35,176 nucleotides of DNA from Caulobacteraceae bacterium. Its GTDB lineage: Bacteria; Pseudomonadota; Alphaproteobacteria; Caulobacterales; Caulobacteraceae. Where the stretch lies: the NCBI GenBank assembly GCA_947452365.1, contig CANGCO010000017.1, positions 1-35,176 on the forward strand. The letters are read 5' to 3'. The position numbers and the translations under genes are program-made. The stretch's first letter is position 1; each line of letters starts with the position of its first letter. Of this stretch, positions 2,766-33,773 are shown in pieces. Below the pieces are notes generated by a model. The model was not told where the DNA came from. It did no database searches and saw only the letters and a list, made by a program, of their open reading frames with translations.

Positions 2766-4865
2766 CTAGACCTGACCGGCCGACTTTAAGCGAATCCGCG
2801 GATGGATTTCATTTTGTGACATGACCACGGTCTGGCCGCGGAAGCGTTCAATGATCGCGCGGACATGCGGCCGCACGCCGGGGCTGGTCAAAAGCACAGC
2901 GGCGTCTCCGGCCACCGCGGCGGTCTCAAAAGCGGTACGCACCAGACCGATAAAGTCTTGCAGCTTGGACGGGGCGAGGGCCAGTTGCGGATCATCGGGC
3001 GGCCCAATCAGGGCATCGGCAAAGGTCTGTTCCCAGTCTGGCGACAGGGTAATGATCGGCAGATTGCCCTCTTCGTCGCGATATTGCCAGCATAGCTGCT
3101 TGGCAAGCCGCATGCGCACGTGTTCGACAATCTGGGTGATCGAGCCCTTCATGGCGCTGGCCTCGCCCATGCCTTCCAAAATGGCGGGAAGATCGCGGAT
3201 CGAGACCCGTTCGCGCAACAGGGCCTGCAAGACCCTCTGCACAGTGGTGGCGCTAACCACGCTCGGGATCAGGTCCTCGACCAGTTTTTTCTGCTCAGAC
3301 GGTAGGTCCTTCAGCAGTTTTTGCACCTCGGAATAGGATAGAAGGTCGGGCATATTGTCTTTAAGAATCTCGGTCAGATGCGTGGTCAAGACCGTTGCTG
3401 GGTCGACAATCGTATAGCCCTTAAAGGTCGCTTCCTCGCGCAATTCGTCCTCAATCCAGGTAGCGGGCAGGCCAAAGGCCGGTTCGCGCACATGCTCGCC
3501 CGGCAGATCGACCTGACCGCCTTGCGGGTCCATGACCATGAGATGGCCAAGCCTGACCTCGCCGGATCCCGCCTCCATCTCCTTGATGCGGATGGCATAG
3601 CCATTATTGCTCAGGCGCATATTGTCGAGAATGCGCACGGACGGCATAACAAACCCAAAATCGGTCGCAAGCGTTCGGCGCAGGGCCCTGATCTGGTCAG
3701 TCAGACGCCGACCCTCGATGTCATTGATCAGATTAAGCAGGCCATAGCCCAGCTCGATCTTGATATCGTCAATGGTCAGGGCCGTGGTGATGGGCTCTTC
3801 AATATCGGTTGGCGCGCTTGGGATCGCGTCCGCCGCCGCAGCGACGCGGGTCTGTTCTTGCTGTGACCGGCGCCAGGCAAGCACGCCCGCCCCGATCGAA
3901 ATCGCCGCAAACGGCAAGATCGGCATGCCCGGTACCAGGGCAATCACACCAGACGCCGCCGAGACTATGCCAAGACTGACCGGATTGGTTGCCAATTGGG
4001 TGACAAGCGCCTTGTCGGCCGCTTCTTCCACCCCGGCCTTGGACACGAGAAAGCCAGCGGCAATCGAGATCACCAAGGCCGGAATCTGGCTAACCAGCCC
4101 GTCGCCAATGGTCATAATGGTATAGGTGGCGGCCGCCTCACCAATCGGCAGGCCGTGCTGCAAGACCCCAATCAAGATGCCGCCGACAATATTGATCCCG
4201 GTAATGATCAGGCCGGCAATCGCGTCGCCTCGGACAAATTTGGACGCGCCATCCATGGCCCCGAAAAAGGTAGATTCCTGTTCCAGCTCCTTACGGCGGA
4301 TCTTGGCGGCGGCCTCGTCAATCATGCCCGCCGATAGATCAGCATCTATGGCCATCTGCTTGCCGGGCATGGCGTCGAGGGTAAAGCGGGCCGCGACCTC
4401 GGCAATGCGGCCCGAGCCCTTTGTAATCACGACAAAATTGACAATCACCAGGATGATAAACACCACCACCCCAATGACGAAATTACCCTGCATCATCAGA
4501 TTGCCAAAGGCGGCAATAATCTGACCCGCCCCGTGCACACCCTCGTGCCCGTGACCAAGAATGAGCCGGGTCGAGGCAATATTCAGCGCCAAGCGGTATA
4601 GGGTGGTCACAAGCAGAACGGTTGGAAAGGCGGTGAATTCCAGCGGCCTACGCAGCAAGATGGCCGTCATCAAGATCAAGACAGCGCTGGTAATCGATAT
4701 GGCCAGCAATAGGTCCAAGAGCAGGGCTGGGACCGGCAGGATCAAGAGGACAATAATGCCCACGACCCCAAGGGCCATGATCACATCGCCGCGCGCAACC
4801 CAGCCTCGCACCTCTTTCAGGGTCGGGCGGTTTGCCGCTAGATTGGAAAGACCAAGATCAGCCAT
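2766..4865 (-). CDS. flhA: Flagellar export gate protein FlhA
   Basis: A 699-residue protein with the full FlhA plan. A short cytoplasmic N-terminus is followed by about eight membrane helices (residues 30-330, including LILPVPALLLDLLLAISI), then the FHIPEP-type signature around YRLALNIASTRLILGHG and GDAIAGLIITGINIVGG, and a large cytoplasmic domain (residues ~360-699) that docks chaperone-substrate complexes. FlhA forms the ring under the flagellar type III export gate and couples proton flow to secretion. The ATG is preceded by GAGG. It starts 15 bases after the flbD stop, so it is the last gene of the fliF operon. In Caulobacter crescentus, as I recall, flhA is not at this position. Confidence 0.97.
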   Translation of the reverse strand: MADLGLSNLAANRPTLKEVRGWVARGDVIMALGVVGIIVLLILPVPALLLDLLLAISITSAVLILMTAILLRRPLEFTAFPTVLLVTTLYRLALNIASTRLILGHGHEGVHGAGQIIAAFGNLMMQGNFVIGVVVFIILVIVNFVVITKGSGRIAEVAARFTLDAMPGKQMAIDADLSAGMIDEAAAKIRRKELEQESTFFGAMDGASKFVRGDAIAGLIITGINIVGGILIGVLQHGLPIGEAAATYTIMTIGDGLVSQIPALVISIAAGFLVSKAGVEEAADKALVTQLATNPVSLGIVSAASGVIALVPGMPILPFAAISIGAGVLAWRRSQQEQTRVAAAADAIPSAPTDIEEPITTALTIDDIKIELGYGLLNLINDIEGRRLTDQIRALRRTLATDFGFVMPSVRILDNMRLSNNGYAIRIKEMEAGSGEVRLGHLMVMDPQGGQVDLPGEHVREPAFGLPATWIEDELREEATFKGYTIVDPATVLTTHLTEILKDNMPDLLSYSEVQKLLKDLPSEQKKLVEDLIPSVVSATTVQRVLQALLRERVSIRDLPAILEGMGEASAMKGSITQIVEHVRMRLAKQLCWQYRDEEGNLPIITLSPDWEQTFADALIGPPDDPQLALAPSKLQDFIGLVRTAFETAAVAGDAAVLLTSPGVRPHVRAIIERFRGQTVVMSQNEIHPRIRLKSAGQV

Positions 4866-24824: not shown

Positions 24825-25340
24825 TCACCAGTTATTGATCACGACCTCCATGATCAGGCCTGTGCGGATATTGATCAGCAACAGGCTATCGCCCGCCCGG
24901 ATCCAGGCAAACCCCCTGGGGGGCGGGCGAAGACGATAGCTGCCATAGTCGCGGATAAGGCTATTGCGATAATATGGGGCCAGATATTGGCCGCGTGACC
25001 AGGCGCGGTAACCTGGCTCGTAATACCCATAGGCCGGGGGTGGTCCATAAAACCAGCGGCCCTGCGCCATATAGCCATTATGCCTGTGCTCGTCCCAAAG
25101 GGCGTGGCGGCGTTCGTGATAGCGGTCGCGACCGCCCCTGTCTTGATCGCCCCCATCTTGGTCGCCCCTATACTGATGATCATAGCCCTGGTCGCCACGG
25201 TCTGATCTTTGTTGGTCGCGGCGGTCAAAATCGCCGTGCGCACCGCGGTCTCGGTAACCGGGATCGGCTAGGGCTAGGCTAGGGGCGGCTAGGCTCAAGG
25301 CCGCTATGGCCGCCAGTAAATAAGCACGTGATCGGGTCAT
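24825..25340 (-). CDS. RcnB-family periplasmic protein
   Basis: A 171-residue exported protein. It has a signal peptide (residues 1-26, ending ALA), a low-complexity Asp/Arg/Gly/Gln-rich middle (27-85, many DRGDQ-like repeats) and a C-terminal RcnB domain. The domain reads YRAWSRGQYLAPYYRNSLIRDYGSYRLRPPPRGFAWIRAGD, then TGLIMEVVIN. In E. coli RcnB tunes nickel and cobalt efflux; in alphaproteobacteria many paralogues are of unknown role. ATG 25340 follows AAAGGA with a ~9-base gap and gives a clean signal peptide, unlike the frame opening at 25412. It converges with cobT. Confidence 0.83.
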   Translation of the reverse strand: MTRSRAYLLAAIAALSLAAPSLALADPGYRDRGAHGDFDRRDQQRSDRGDQGYDHQYRGDQDGGDQDRGGRDRYHERRHALWDEHRHNGYMAQGRWFYGPPPAYGYYEPGYRAWSRGQYLAPYYRNSLIRDYGSYRLRPPPRGFAWIRAGDSLLLINIRTGLIMEVVINNW

Positions 25341-25719
25341 AATCTGTGTCCTTTTGCGGTTACCCCGTGAAAGCACACTGCGCTGCTGGCCCTGAACCCA
25401 GTCTGAATGCAATCCTCAGCCTAGATTGGGGTTTGAACCGCTGGTTTGATCAAATGAGCAATGCCAAAAATCTTCCATCAAAACATTCGGCGAAAGTCCG
25501 ATTGGGAGCAAATAAGTCGGGCCGACAGCCGTCCAATAACTTAATCCTCTATAAACAAGTCGATTTGAAAACCCCCTCCAACCCATCCGGTCTAAAGATC
25601 AATTTTTGATGATGGGGATTTTTACCGTATTTTTACAGGCCACAGTGTTTCATTGCCCAAGACTAGGCCGACGCTTGGGGACCAAAATGGTCTTTTGCGC
25701 TCAAAATGGGAATGAGGTC
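25341..25719. other. Intergenic region upstream of rcnB-like and Sel1-like genes
   Basis: 379 bases between divergent genes, less GC-rich than the flanks, which should hold both promoters. An 87-residue open frame (25346-25609) has no recognisable features and is not called. No repeat or structured RNA is evident. Confidence 0.5.
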
Positions 25720-25995
25720 ATGCTTGCTTATCGAGAAGTTTCATTGGTCTCCAGCCTGCCCTTTCCGGCAGGGGATATATCTGCCGACGAATTGTTTCGC
25801 CTCGGCATGCAGTATTCGACGGGTCAAGGCGGCGTTCCGATTGATTTTGTCTCGGCGCATATGATGTTTAACCTGGCAGCCATGCGCGGGTCTCTCGAAG
25901 CAAAGATTTATCGACGTGAATTAAGCCAAGAAATGGATCCGTCTGAAGTCGCTGAAGCTCAAAAAGCTGCGCGCGAATGGCTAGGCCATCACTAA
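25720..25995 (+). CDS. Small Sel1-repeat-type protein
   Basis: A 91-residue protein: LAYREVSLVSSLPFPAGD, then a single Sel1-like (TPR-related) helix pair, ADELFRLGMQYSTGQGG followed by DFVSAHMMFNLAAMRGSLEA, and a last helix SEVAEAQKAAREWL. Proteins of this size and pattern are conserved in Caulobacterales and Rhizobiales; their function is not known to me. The frame is open from 25606, but ATG 25720 (GAGG just upstream) matches the length of the conserved family. It stands alone before the polysaccharide genes. Confidence 0.75.
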   Translation: MLAYREVSLVSSLPFPAGDISADELFRLGMQYSTGQGGVPIDFVSAHMMFNLAAMRGSLEAKIYRRELSQEMDPSEVAEAQKAAREWLGHH

Positions 25996-26079: not shown

Positions 26080-27396
26080 ATGCTTGCGTTCAATGGAATG
26101 CTCGACAATGGGGTTTTGCACTTAGGCATGGATGATTTTCGCGCCCATTTTCGACAAGCGGGGCAGGTTTCGCGCCTCGGGCGGACGAGGGCGGTGTGGC
26201 TGGGTCCGGCATCGGTCTTGGGCGCGCGGTTGCGCGACCGTTTTAGCCTGTTACCCCGTGAAATCTTGCCAATGATAATGGTGTTCGCCGTGGTCCTGTC
26301 GATCGGCCTCGGCCTAGCCCTGCCGCAGCCCATACTGTTTACCGCCGAGGCCAGCCTCACCGTGCCGCGCGATCAGGGTCTATCCTTTTCCAGCTGGTCC
26401 CATGTGACCGGCGCGGCCCCAGACAATATTCAAGGTGGCGTGACCCAGTCCGCTATGGACGACCTTTCCAGCCAAAGACTGATTTTGCAAACCATAGAGA
26501 CCATTGGTCTTGGCAAGCTTTATCCCGATCTTGCGGGCTTGGGCGCGGATGGTCATCAGGAGGCCTTGAGGCGTTTATCCAAGGGTTTGAAACTGAATCA
26601 AGCCGCGGGTTCAAGCCAGCTCACAGTCCGCTTTTCTCACACGGTGCCGAGCCTAGCCGCCTTGGTGCCCAATACGCTGATCGCGGCCTATATAAGCGAA
26701 TATGCGCGGCGGCTCGGTCCGGCTGCCGAGCCAGGGCTTGGTGGCATTGCGCCGGGCAATGTCGCGCCTTCGCAAGCCCTGGCGGATACCCCCGATCGTT
26801 TGCGGGCAGACCTTGAGCGGCAATTAGCGGCCAAGCGCCGCGCCCTATACCGTATTGAACGCGATCTCACCGCCCAGGCCTCCATGGTCCATCTGTCTTG
26901 GCAGGGCATGACCAATAGTCTGAGGGCGGATGGTCATGAGCACACATTTGGCTTTAACACCCAATACCAAGCGCTGCAGATTGAGCAGAGGCGAACCATG
27001 ATTGCGATCGGCAATTTAAAGCGCAAAATTGCCGGTTTGGGCCGTCCGATCGCCGGACCGTCGGGTCCACCAAGGGCCGGCTTGGCCAATAATGCCAATA
27101 GGGCCGGTCCTGAGGCCAGTCCCAATCAAAAACCCGCCGTCGGGCTTGAGCCGGTTCGAATTGTGAAATTAGCAATGGCGCCGCGCGAAGGGCGCCGTCA
27201 GGGCGCGCATCTTGTCCTTATGGCTGCACTGTTCGGCGCTGGGCTAGGCTTGGTGACGGGCCTCGTCTTAAGCACACGGCGTACGGGGTTTGGGTCTGCT
27301 CGATTGGCGAGTCAAATGCTTGATCTACCAGTGCTAACGCGTGTCGGTGTTTTGCCGCAGGGCCGGACCGCCTTGTCGCGTGGTGGGTTTGAATAG
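26080..27396 (+). CDS. Wzz/chain-length-determinant-like membrane protein
   Basis: A 438-residue protein with the layout of polysaccharide co-polymerases. A cytoplasmic N-terminus of ~60 residues is followed by one membrane helix (~64-84), then a long periplasmic part beginning FTAEASLTVPRDQG, with SSQRLILQTIETIGLGKLYPDL (Wzz-typical) and a helical region ~240-320. A second membrane helix (~395-415, LMAALFGAGLGLVTGLVLS) lies near the C-terminus. There is no fused kinase domain; the next gene, 3 bases on, resembles one. It should help set chain length or export of a surface polysaccharide. The start is uncertain: 26080, 26098 and 26128 are all possible. Confidence 0.75.
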   Translation: MLAFNGMLDNGVLHLGMDDFRAHFRQAGQVSRLGRTRAVWLGPASVLGARLRDRFSLLPREILPMIMVFAVVLSIGLGLALPQPILFTAEASLTVPRDQGLSFSSWSHVTGAAPDNIQGGVTQSAMDDLSSQRLILQTIETIGLGKLYPDLAGLGADGHQEALRRLSKGLKLNQAAGSSQLTVRFSHTVPSLAALVPNTLIAAYISEYARRLGPAAEPGLGGIAPGNVAPSQALADTPDRLRADLERQLAAKRRALYRIERDLTAQASMVHLSWQGMTNSLRADGHEHTFGFNTQYQALQIEQRRTMIAIGNLKRKIAGLGRPIAGPSGPPRAGLANNANRAGPEASPNQKPAVGLEPVRIVKLAMAPREGRRQGAHLVLMAALFGAGLGLVTGLVLSTRRTGFGSARLASQMLDLPVLTRVGVLPQGRTALSRGGFE

Positions 27397-27399
27397 CCC

Positions 27400-28107
27400 A
27401 TGAACACATTGAACTCAGATCTGGAACAGCTTTGGTTCGCCTTGGGCATGGCCGAATACGGCCCCTCGGCTAGCTTGCAATTCATCGCTGCCGATAGTGG
27501 CGAGGGCACATCCCTATTGGCCCGTGAATTTGCAGCCTATGCTGCGCGGCGTATGGATCGTCCGGTTTGGTTGGTCAGTCTTGAGCCCGGTTCGGCGGTT
27601 CACATCGATGCCATCCAGGCCCAACCCTGGCGCTTCGGGCCACTAGGTGAAATGAAGCAGGCTAGTCCTGACCGTTCAATGTTTTTTGAAGTTTGGCCTG
27701 AGGCGCGCGATCATCGCGGCCGCAGGGTTGAGGATGCGGATTATTTGGTGGCCTATGGGGTGTGTGAACAGCGCCTTTGGGTGACTGAGTTTCGCACCGA
27801 CTTGCTGGATCCAGACCAGATCATACAGGTCACGGCGAGTGCGGCCTATTGGAACGCCTTGAAAGCCTATAGCGGCCTGATCATTGTCGATTGTCCAGCC
27901 CTAGACCGATCCATAGACGGCTTGACCATAGCCCCGTTTATGGATCAATCGGTTATTGTGCTGGCGGCGGATGGTGCCAGTGTGCGCGGGCCCGCCTTGT
28001 TGAAAAATGCCCTGATGGCGGCCGGGGCCAATTGCGTTGGCCTTGTCTTTAATCGTGACCCCGCGCGGCGCGGTAGGCGGCCCAAGATTTTACAGAGGTT
28101 GCGTTAA
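27400..28107 (+). CDS. BY-kinase/MinD-like P-loop protein with degenerate ATP site
   Basis: A 235-residue protein with the fold pattern of Wzc/CpsD-type tyrosine kinases: FIAADSGEGTSLLAREFAAYAARR (Walker A region, 29-51), WLVSLEPGSAV (Walker A' position) and GLIIVDCPALD (Walker B), then IVLAADGASVRGPALLKNALMAAGANCVGLVFNRD. The expected GEGK[ST][ST] reads GEGTS, so the ATP-binding lysine is missing, the Walker A' aspartate is absent, and there is no C-terminal tyrosine cluster. It is probably a non-catalytic partner of the upstream Wzz-like protein. The gap to that gene is 3 bases. It resembles the split Wzz plus kinase-like arrangement of holdfast genes hfsA/hfsB, but that identity is not proven. 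Confidence 0.75.
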   Translation: MNTLNSDLEQLWFALGMAEYGPSASLQFIAADSGEGTSLLAREFAAYAARRMDRPVWLVSLEPGSAVHIDAIQAQPWRFGPLGEMKQASPDRSMFFEVWPEARDHRGRRVEDADYLVAYGVCEQRLWVTEFRTDLLDPDQIIQVTASAAYWNALKAYSGLIIVDCPALDRSIDGLTIAPFMDQSVIVLAADGASVRGPALLKNALMAAGANCVGLVFNRDPARRGRRPKILQRLR

Positions 28108-29105
28108 TGTATCGTCCCGGCCCTCTTAATCTGATCACAGATCTTGCGGGCCTAAGCGTAGGCCATGCCACCGATCAGGCCGTGATGACGGGCGTGACCT
28201 CAGTCCTATGCCAAGGCGACTGGACCGGGGCGGTGGATGTTCGCGGCGGCGGGCCGGGTTCGCGCGAGACCGAGGCCTTGGCGCCGGAAAACTTTGTCGA
28301 TCTGGTACACGCCGTGGTCCTAACTGGCGGCTCTGTGTTTGGGCTGGGCGCCGCCGATGGCGTGACCGCGGCCCTCTCGGCCCAGAATGTGGGCTTACGG
28401 CTTAGCCCGACCTCTCCGGCAATCCCGATTGTGCCTGCTGCCGTGCTGCATGATCTAGGGAATGAGGGCAATAAGGCCTGGGGCCTGAACCCGCCCTATC
28501 GCGATCTGGGCATGGCCTCTGTGGTCGCCGCCGCGAAACAGTTTGCGCTTGGCGCGGTCGGGGCCGGGCGCGGGGCCATGGCGGGCATGGTCAAGGGCGG
28601 TATAGGCTCGGCCTCGCTCGATCTTGGCGGCGGGCTGATGGTCGGGGCGATTGTGGCGACCAATCCGGTTGGGTCGGTCTATATGCCGGACGACAAGACC
28701 TTCTGGGCCTGGCCATTTGAGATTGATGGCGAGTTTGGCGGTGTTCGGCCCGATCCGACCGCGCATGCGAATGATCCCTTGCCCGAACAATCGCGCTTGA
28801 AAATGACCGGGCGTCTGACCCCCGGGGCCAATACCACCCTGGCCGTCGTTGCCGTCTCAGCGCGCCTGACCAAGGCCGAGGCCAAGCGTCTGGCTATGAT
28901 GGCGCAGGACGGGCTGGCGCGCGCCATTCGCCCGGTCCATGCCCCCTATGACGGCGACACTGTCTTTGCCCTATCGAGCCGCCAGATCGAGATCGGTGAC
29001 GGGGCAGAGCGTTTGGTGCAATTGACCCGCCTTGGCTCAGCCGCCGCCGATTGCCTAGCCCGTGCGATTGCGCGCGGCGTCTATTGCGCGAGGAAGACGG
29101 TCTGA
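28107..29105 (+). CDS. P1-family peptidase (DmpA/BapA-like, family S58)
   Basis: A 332-residue protein with the P1/DmpA fold: ITDLAGLSVGHATD at the start, VDVRGGGPGSRETEAL, VHAVVLTGGSVFGLGAADGV, GAVGAGRGAMAGMVKGGIGSAS and GANTTLAVVAVSARLTKAEAKRLA. The last is the region where these proteins cleave themselves in front of a Ser or Thr nucleophile. Members are aminopeptidases or beta-peptidyl hydrolases of unclear physiological role. The start codon overlaps the stop of the preceding kinase-like gene by one base (TAATG), so the two are translationally coupled, which is unusual company for a P1 peptidase. Confidence 0.88.
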   Translation: MYRPGPLNLITDLAGLSVGHATDQAVMTGVTSVLCQGDWTGAVDVRGGGPGSRETEALAPENFVDLVHAVVLTGGSVFGLGAADGVTAALSAQNVGLRLSPTSPAIPIVPAAVLHDLGNEGNKAWGLNPPYRDLGMASVVAAAKQFALGAVGAGRGAMAGMVKGGIGSASLDLGGGLMVGAIVATNPVGSVYMPDDKTFWAWPFEIDGEFGGVRPDPTAHANDPLPEQSRLKMTGRLTPGANTTLAVVAVSARLTKAEAKRLAMMAQDGLARAIRPVHAPYDGDTVFALSSRQIEIGDGAERLVQLTRLGSAAADCLARAIARGVYCARKTV

Positions 29106-29149: not shown

Positions 29150-29176
29150 ATATCAAATCGGTTGGGAGCAGGGACT

Positions 29177-30082
29177 ATGCAGGTATTAAGAACGCCCGAT
29201 GATCGGTTCGCAGGCTTGGCCGATTGGCCCTATGCGCCGCACTATACCGATATTGCGGATGCCGATGGCACGACGCTGCGCGTCCATCATGTCGATGAAG
29301 GCCCTAGCGATGCTGCCCCCGTGCTATTGATGCATGGCGAGCCGTCCTGGTCTTATCTCTATCGCAATTTCATCCCCAATCTGACGGCCAAGGGCCACAG
29401 GGTGGTCTGCCCGGACCTGATCGGTTTTGGCCGCTCCGATAAGCTTGGTGCGCGCACGGACTATACTTTTGAGCGGCATGTGACCTGGATGAGCGCATGG
29501 CTGCTGGCCAATGATCTGAAGAATATTACCCTGTTTTGCCAAGACTGGGGCGGCCTGATTGGCCTGCGTCTGGTTGCCGCCTTTCCCGAGCGGTTTGCGC
29601 GCCTGGTGATCGCTAATACCGGCCTGCCGATTGGCACAGGCTCTTCGGACGGTTTTGATAACTGGCTGACCTTTAGCCAGTCCGTGCCAGAGTTTCCCGT
29701 TAGCCTGATCATTGATATGGGCACGGTTCGCAGCCTGACCGACGCCGAAAAGGCCGCCTATGACGCGCCCTTCCCAGACGAGACCTATAAGGAGGGCGCA
29801 CGCCAGTTCCCGACCCTGGTGCCCATCACGCCCCAGCATGCTTCGGTCCCCGAAAACATTGAGGCCTGGAAGGTCCTGTCCAGCTTTACCCGCCCGGTCC
29901 TGACCTGTTTTAGCGATTCTGATCCCGTCTCAAAGGGCGGCGAGAAGGTGTTTATCGACAAGGTGCCCGGGGCCAAGGGCCAGCCGCACCTGATTATCGA
30001 AAAAGGCGGTCATTTCCTGCAAGAAGACCAACCCGAACAGCTATGTGACCTGATCGACGGCTTTATTCGCCAAGCCTCTTAA
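29177..30082 (+). CDS. Haloalkane dehalogenase, DhlA-like subfamily
   Basis: A 301-residue alpha/beta hydrolase close to Xanthobacter DhlA. It has [10 protein letters not shown] at the N-terminus, oxyanion and halide region [16 protein letters not shown] (His53, Glu55), GFGRSDK, the nucleophile elbow CQDWGG (Asp123, halide-binding Trp124), the acid in [10 protein letters not shown] and the base in KGGHFLQED. All catalytic residues are present, so cleavage of carbon-halogen bonds is a fair prediction, though natural substrates of chromosomal members are often unknown. The start is ATG 29177 behind GGGA rather than the TTG at 29162. It follows the P1 peptidase by about 70 bases. Confidence 0.9.
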
Positions 30083-33053: not shown

Positions 33054-33773
33054 ATGAATTCGCTCAATTCCGCCTTATCCAAAAAGATGGCTCCCGCGCT
33101 TGGTGCGTCTGTACTGATCTTGTTATGCATTGGCGCCGTGACGATGGCCCCAGAGCGCGCCCTGGCCCTATCGCCGGACTTGCCGCGCCCGGAAGCGGCG
33201 GCCGCCAATCCGCGATATGAGTATGTGATCGGCCCGCAAGATACGATTGATGTGAGTGTTTTTCAGATTAAGGACCTAACTTTAGAAAAAATCCAGGTCG
33301 ATGGATCTGGGCGTATCCTCTTGCCCCTGATCGGTACAGTGATTGCCGCAGGTAAAACAGCGCCGCAGCTGGCTGATGAGATTGCCGAGCGCCTAAGGGG
33401 TAAGTTCGTTCAAGACCCGCAAGTTGTGGTAATGGTGCGCGATGCGGCGAGCCAGAGGGTCACGGTTGATGGCGCGGTCGTTAAGCCGGGTGTCTATGCG
33501 CTAATGGGCCCGACCACCTTGCTTCAGGCGGTTGCCTTGGCCCAAGGGCCCGACAACAAATACGCAAATTTGCGACGGGTCATCCTGTTTCGGGTTGAAG
33601 ACGGTAAGCGCAAGTCTACCGTTTACAACCTCGCTGACATACGGTCTGGGCGCACGGACGATCCCGATGTCCGCGCCAATGATGTGGTCATTGTCGATGG
33701 CTCAAACATCAAGGGCGCTTGGCGTGAAGTCCTTGGCGCCCTGCCAGGCCTAGCGATCTTTCGCCCATTCTGA
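33054..33773 (+). CDS. Polysaccharide biosynthesis/export protein (Wza/OPX family)
   Basis: A 239-residue exported protein. It has a signal peptide (roughly residues 12-39), a polysaccharide-export domain (YVIGPQDTIDVSVFQIKDLTLEKIQVDGSG, RILLPLIGTV, TAPQLADEIAERLRG, DPQVVVMVRD) and one SLBB domain (RVTVDGAVVKPGVYALMGPTTLLQAVALAQG). There is no lipobox cysteine and no C-terminal outer-membrane helix like that of E. coli Wza. It is therefore the short OPX type, which may need a partner to cross the outer membrane. A Wzc/GumC-like gene follows 36 bases later, the standard pairing for Wzx/Wzy-type export. ATG 33054 is preceded by GGAAAA. Confidence 0.9.
   Translation: MNSLNSALSKKMAPALGASVLILLCIGAVTMAPERALALSPDLPRPEAAAANPRYEYVIGPQDTIDVSVFQIKDLTLEKIQVDGSGRILLPLIGTVIAAGKTAPQLADEIAERLRGKFVQDPQVVVMVRDAASQRVTVDGAVVKPGVYALMGPTTLLQAVALAQGPDNKYANLRRVILFRVEDGKRKSTVYNLADIRSGRTDDPDVRANDVVIVDGSNIKGAWREVLGALPGLAIFRPF

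Follow-up and report, generated by a model that had tools for sequence, protein, structure and literature searches.

What has joined a gene for a self-processing peptidase so tightly to two genes of polysaccharide export type in a Caulobacteraceae bacterium? The window that we analyzed is the whole 35,176-nucleotide contig CANGCO010000017.1 (our contig C17) from a draft genome of 2.59 Mb with 97.75% completeness (G000). It carries three consecutive open reading frames (ORFs) on the plus strand, encoding a Wzz-like protein of 438 amino acids (gene 1), a kinase-like protein of 235 amino acids (gene 2), and an S58/P1 peptidase of 332 amino acids (gene 3; Table 1). An initial annotation of the window had proposed that they form either an undescribed module, in which the hydrolase acts with a Wzz-like complex, or a fortuitous fusion of two operons. 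The junctions that it reported are present: gene 2 starts 3 bases after gene 1 (TAG CCC ATG), and the peptidase start overlaps the gene 2 stop by one base (TAATG). We find that genes 1 and 2 are the hfsA-hfsB pair of the holdfast locus and that the trio is very probably a deletion junction produced by contraction of this locus, not a designed module.

Neither gene 1 nor gene 2 alone returned a Pfam match above cut-off, and judged by profiles and models their products have a PCP-2 fold and a bacterial tyrosine (BY)-kinase fold, respectively. Gene 1 matches the profiles of PslE (E is 1.9e-26) and Wzc (5e-5), and its predicted structure, a weak model with a predicted local distance difference test (pLDDT) score of 62, returns WzzE and Wzc in Foldseek. 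The gene sits between sel1 and hfsB as hfsA does in Caulobacteraceae, and its product is 23–30% identical to 16 family relatives and 84% identical to the protein of G004, a genome of another species in the same genus. Two transmembrane helices (hydropathy peaks at 62 and 379) flank a periplasmic Wzz/coiled-coil part, a kinase domain is absent, and the C-terminal LDLPVL segment is retained. The coiled coil is trimmed: 103 alignment columns that are present in at least 12 of the 16 relatives are missing in both G000 and G004, mostly from the periplasmic part, and the aligned spans of the relatives are 469–502 amino acids long. The Wzz-like protein is thus, by its sequence, a shortened HfsA. Our naming of gene 1 as hfsA, and of the Wzy gene discussed below as hfsC, follows gene position and published work.

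Gene 2 encodes HfsB, a bacterial tyrosine pseudokinase. The protein shares 37–51% identity with 16 relatives and 84% with its G004 counterpart, its profile matches are to CapB/VpsO kinases, and its model (pLDDT 86.5) returns the kinase domains of Wzc, CapAB, and Etk in Foldseek. A GEG-x-S motif devoid of the Walker-A lysine is found in all 18 aligned HfsB sequences (gene 2 and 17 relatives), and gene 2 combines a BY-kinase fold and a stand-alone architecture with the loss of the catalytic lysine and of the C-terminal tyrosine cluster. The earlier reading of gene 2 as a pseudo-kinase was correct, and the type is a known one. The pairing of a pseudokinase with a PCP-2 protein has already been described for HfsAB (PMC12004946): in Caulobacter crescentus, HfsA has no kinase domain of its own, the pseudokinase HfsB is required for holdfast and important in stabilizing HfsA, and a model places the last 27 HfsA residues in contact with HfsB. 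A second report gives C. crescentus hfsB and hfsD as 2430 and 2432 (PMC13001252). The window pair resembles this non-canonical bipartite PCP-2 in sequence and fold, in flank and gene order as seen in family loci, and in the missing Walker-A lysine and tyrosine tail. It differs in its shorter HfsA coiled coil and in having no adjoining hfsD or hfsC. By description, Myxococcus xanthus EcpK/EpsV is likewise a kinase-less PCP-2 protein with a stand-alone pseudokinase (PMC12004946) but belongs to a myxobacterial exopolysaccharide gene cluster.

To place the pair in its usual surroundings, we compared the best 80 of 203 candidate HfsB loci, with flanks of up to 6 kb, several of which are cut by contig ends. 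Using tblastn with one query per neighbor, where misses may reflect divergence, we located HfsA in 80 of the 80 loci, Wza in 72, sel1 in 70, rcnB in 61, and Wzy-type HfsC in 55; an S58 peptidase was found in the fetched flanks of a single locus, that of G004. The typical Caulobacteraceae order is rcnB, sel1, and a divergent hfsD (Wza), followed by hfsA-hfsB-hfsC (Wzy), and an initiating transferase, a flippase, glycosyltransferases, and a deacetylase lie near the typical locus. In G062 the order is transferase (PF02397), flippase (PF13440), GT2, deacetylase, GT2, Wzy_C, HfsB, HfsA, and Wza. The polymerase gene hfsC is the usual next gene after hfsB, and when its in-frame start nearest to the HfsB stop is taken, the two genes share 4 bases in 48 of the 55 loci.

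The seven genomes of the genus fall into two arrangements. G000 and G004 share the order rcnB-sel1-hfsA-hfsB-peptidase-dehalogenase, and G004 repeats both junctions, with genes 1 and 2 each as long as in G000; the peptidases of the two species are 93–94% identical. In the other five genomes (G001, G002, G003, G005, and G006), rcnB, sel1, and the peptidase gene lie together, with a sel1-to-peptidase gap of 86–87 bases that comes from ORF picking, a guide that in GC-rich loci returned some spurious ORFs on the antisense strand as well. Neither hfsA nor hfsB has a match in these five genomes, and the interval from sel1 to the peptidase gene revealed no remnant of either (best E is 0.026). The peptidase start codon and the codons that follow are the same in all five, and this agreement supports the start assigned in the window.

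Little of the holdfast pathway was found in the genus. The initiating transferase (PF02397) and the flippase (PF13440) gave no match in any of the seven genomes, whereas each was found in three of three family controls; other such families were not searched. Judged by these two families, a complete Wzx/Wzy holdfast pathway was not recovered in the genus. PF04932 has one match in each of six genus genomes (two below cut-off), and the match in G000 lies on another contig. The only G000 matches to PF02563 and PF02706 are an adjoining gene pair at the end of the window, and the six congeners have none; the PF02706 model misses the HfsA of G000 and is therefore not a test for hfsA. FlhA is present in all seven genomes (in G004 as a fragment below cut-off, in G000 within the window), so the genus retains at least this flagellar gene, whereas the holdfast core families that we tested were not found. 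Joint loss of flagella and holdfast has been reported for Acaudatibacter species and P. immobile (PMC12700997). We considered whether the trio genus is a flagellum-less lineage of that kind and rejected this, because it differs from the lineages described there in keeping FlhA.

The closest PDB match of gene 3 is ThnT (3s3u, 4e-53; a variant entry, 8e-54), aligned over most of the length, and the protein is similar to NylC over most of its length as well. It has Asn-Thr-Thr at the ThnT nucleophile site, with T243 conserved in all 15 aligned sequences and N242 in 14 of them, and is predicted to cleave itself between N242 and T243. Gene 3 thus has an S58 domain with an Asn-Thr nucleophile site and belongs to a family of self-processing hydrolases that also includes DmpA; the sequence comparison was made with ThnT and NylC. 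Its genomic setting appears unlike that of the thienamycin or nylon-oligomer genes. Hydropathy reveals neither a signal-peptide-like N terminus nor a clear transmembrane segment. A literature search for work on both S58 peptidases and exopolysaccharide gave only papers that, by title and abstract, appear unrelated. In a tree of 15 peptidase sequences, the genus forms one clade (support 1.000) in which G000 and G004 group together (0.977) apart from the other five genomes (0.998), with G010 next to it (0.880). This is the topology that vertical descent predicts.

We then asked how often hfsB and the peptidase gene adjoin elsewhere. In a set of 100 genomes, into which G039 was entered by its stronger match only, HfsB is present in 59 and the peptidase in 74, with both in 38, HfsB only in 21, peptidase only in 36, and neither in 5. 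The two genes adjoin in 2 of the 38 genomes that have both, G000 and G004; they lie at least 42 kb apart on one contig in 8 and on different contigs in 28. A link through co-occurrence is rejected, as there is no enrichment and, if anything, avoidance (Fisher p is 0.011, n = 100, kinship ignored). Inspection by eye of the matches listed for 398 genomes of the order, 298 of which have an HfsB-type protein when weak matches (E near 1e-4) are included, shows adjacency in G000 only. The listed matches and loci L225-L229 point to a possible older linkage: genus g22 has four genomes (G058, G185, G399, and G145) in which hfsB and an opposite-strand peptidase gene are ∼40–45 kb apart, and ∼64 kb separate the two genes in G204. 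Window genes sought in the interval of G058 and in most of that of G185 gave only a 27–29% match to the beta-lactamase-like gene.

Tight spacing is unremarkable in this window. Eight of 21 same-strand neighbor pairs are at most 4 bases apart or overlap, 6 of 19 when the two junctions of the trio are left out, in a hand-picked gene list; the six include an overlap of 59 bases, which may be due to a wrong start. We therefore rejected translational coupling as special evidence. A promoter and terminator scan returned two promoter-like sites against 2.0 expected, each of them on the minus strand, and two terminator-like sites against 4.1 expected.

We propose that the genus ancestor would have had hfsD and the genes beyond hfsB removed or moved, and that this contraction would have brought hfsB right up against a pre-existing S58/P1 peptidase gene downstream. 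The clade now represented by five genomes would then have lost hfsA-hfsB as well, giving sel1 followed by the peptidase gene, and the other, with G000 and G004, would have kept hfsB and a shortened hfsA; we infer this order of deletions from synteny. From their spacing, the three genes are probably co-transcribed. By analogy with the Caulobacter and Myxococcus literature, HfsB probably still serves as a phosphorylation-independent scaffold for HfsA, and the pair may act with the OPX/EpsF-type proteins encoded 5–6 kb away. The peptidase, by its ThnT-type homologues, would probably cleave itself and then act as an ordinary amide or peptide hydrolase of the cytoplasm, unrelated to export.

Several observations weigh against this history. 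Both junctions are conserved across two species at a synonymous divergence (dS) of 0.4–0.7, an age at which the arrangement could have acquired some use. The pair has been kept with no flippase, initiating transferase, or exporter of its own and has no clear job. Both genes are free of internal stops in G000 and G004, and their ratios of nonsynonymous to synonymous divergence (dN/dS; Nei-Gojobori with Jukes-Cantor correction, from this single pair of genomes) are 0.198 for hfsA and 0.146 for hfsB, compared with 0.077 for the peptidase, 0.039 for the dehalogenase, 0.071 for cobT, and 0.158 for rcnB, so the pair looks maintained under purifying selection. As no hfsA or hfsB remnant turned up in the sel1-peptidase interval of the congeners, the deletion there is argued from synteny alone. 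The assemblies are drafts (G005 is 97% complete, the five genus genomes other than G000 and G005 63–89%), so a single absence may reflect a gap in the assembly, and two genes assigned to different contigs could in principle lie close together. Contraction of the genus locus also leaves unexplained five of the 80 loci, of Phenylobacterium type (L180, L187, L190, L197, and L199, all but L197 labeled as Phenylobacterium), which keep hfsA-hfsB and have no Wza (hfsD) or Wzy (hfsC) in the fetched flanks. They may represent a parallel contraction. The sel1 gene is directly 5' of hfsA in L190, L197, and L199, ∼1.4 kb 5' in L180, and not found in L187; in the two loci examined, L187 and L190, a PF02397 transferase gene is convergent behind hfsB and the HfsA ORF has 450–454 amino acids. 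In the HfsB tree, the five lie within a group of eight that includes L182, L184, and L186, where Wza and HfsC are present, and so do not form a clade of their own. L208 likewise has no Wza or Wzy match in its fetched flanks.

The conserved TAATG junction, the open genes in two species, and purifying selection on all three genes are what a functional module would show, one in which the self-processing hydrolase acts with HfsA/HfsB, for example by trimming a peptide or amide substituent from a precursor or by processing a partner protein. We regard such a module as extremely improbable and reject it as an undescribed P1-peptidase/Wzz unit: the trio occurs in 2 of 7 genus genomes and, in the 100-genome set, nowhere outside the genus. 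Five congeners have the peptidase without hfsA/hfsB, the other 36 genomes with both genes have them non-adjacent, the peptidase is widespread (336 of 398 genomes of the order), and it appears cytoplasmic by hydropathy, whereas HfsA is mostly periplasmic. The restriction of the trio to two genomes, with the peptidase elsewhere in relatives (36 of 100 genomes without HfsB), nearly matches what the initial annotation had named as the outcome that would speak against a module; its alternative of a fortuitous fusion is the one that synteny supports.

Horizontal transfer could instead have inserted hfsA-hfsB between sel1 and the peptidase gene in the G000/G004 lineage. The low identity of HfsA to its relatives and the poorly supported placement of the G000 HfsB on its tree (0.433) would fit such an event, which we nevertheless consider very unlikely, as sel1-(hfsD)-hfsA-hfsB is the common family order and the pair therefore sits where vertical descent predicts. 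A functionless hfsA-hfsB pair in decay is unlikely too: partner families are missing and HfsA has lost the alignment columns described above, but the reading frames are intact, the lengths are equal in two species, and dN/dS is 0.15–0.20. Contraction of the holdfast locus remains our preferred explanation of the trio. Within it, we suggest only tentatively, and with considerable doubt, that the shortened HfsA-HfsB pair has outlived the remainder of the Wzx/Wzy holdfast machinery because it is selected for another job, such as service to a different exporter, and that here it may be co-expressed with the P1 peptidase.

The coordinates of the trio and of other genes in the window are given in Table 1. 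The dehalogenase gene has a match in G004 only among the six congener stretches; the G001 contig ends within the peptidase gene, and its downstream region is unseen. The rest of the polysaccharide locus to which the OPX- and EpsF-like genes belong lies beyond the contig end.

Table 1. Features of the window, with the evidence for each assignment
Feature	Coordinates	Strand	Evidence and remarks
FlhA	2766-4865		
RcnB-domain protein, a conserved neighbor to the left of the hfs locus	24825..25412	-	PF11776, E 1.1e-15; in all six congener stretches
Sel1-repeat-like protein, conserved to the left of hfsA across the family	25606..25995	+	PF08238, E 0.0017, under cut-off
Shortened HfsA (holdfast PCP-2 co-polymerase), gene 1	26080..27396	+	Locus position, identity to relatives, profiles, Foldseek
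HfsB (stand-alone bacterial tyrosine pseudokinase), gene 2	27400..28107	+	Identity to relatives, motif, profiles, model
S58/P1 peptidase, ThnT/DmpA-like self-processing amide hydrolase, gene 3	28107..29105	+	PF03576, E 6.8e-53
Haloalkane-dehalogenase-family hydrolase, behind the peptidase gene	29162..30082	+	NF002043, E 1.4e-138, above cut-off
OPX/EpsE-like outer-membrane polysaccharide export protein	33054..33773	+	PF02563, 5.4e-23; not in the HfsD position
EpsF-like Wzz protein, runs off the contig end	33810..35176	+	PF02706, 8e-9; TIGR03017, 1e-31, under cut-off

The cause of the trio is probably an ordinary one, and the mildly interesting part is the persistence of a short HfsAB pair. A tight, seemingly coupled trio can arise from the contraction of a locus, which calls for caution when function is inferred from operon overlap. 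The genus also offers a natural case of a bipartite pseudokinase co-polymerase that persists without most of its usual machinery and could be used to test the role of HfsAB alone.

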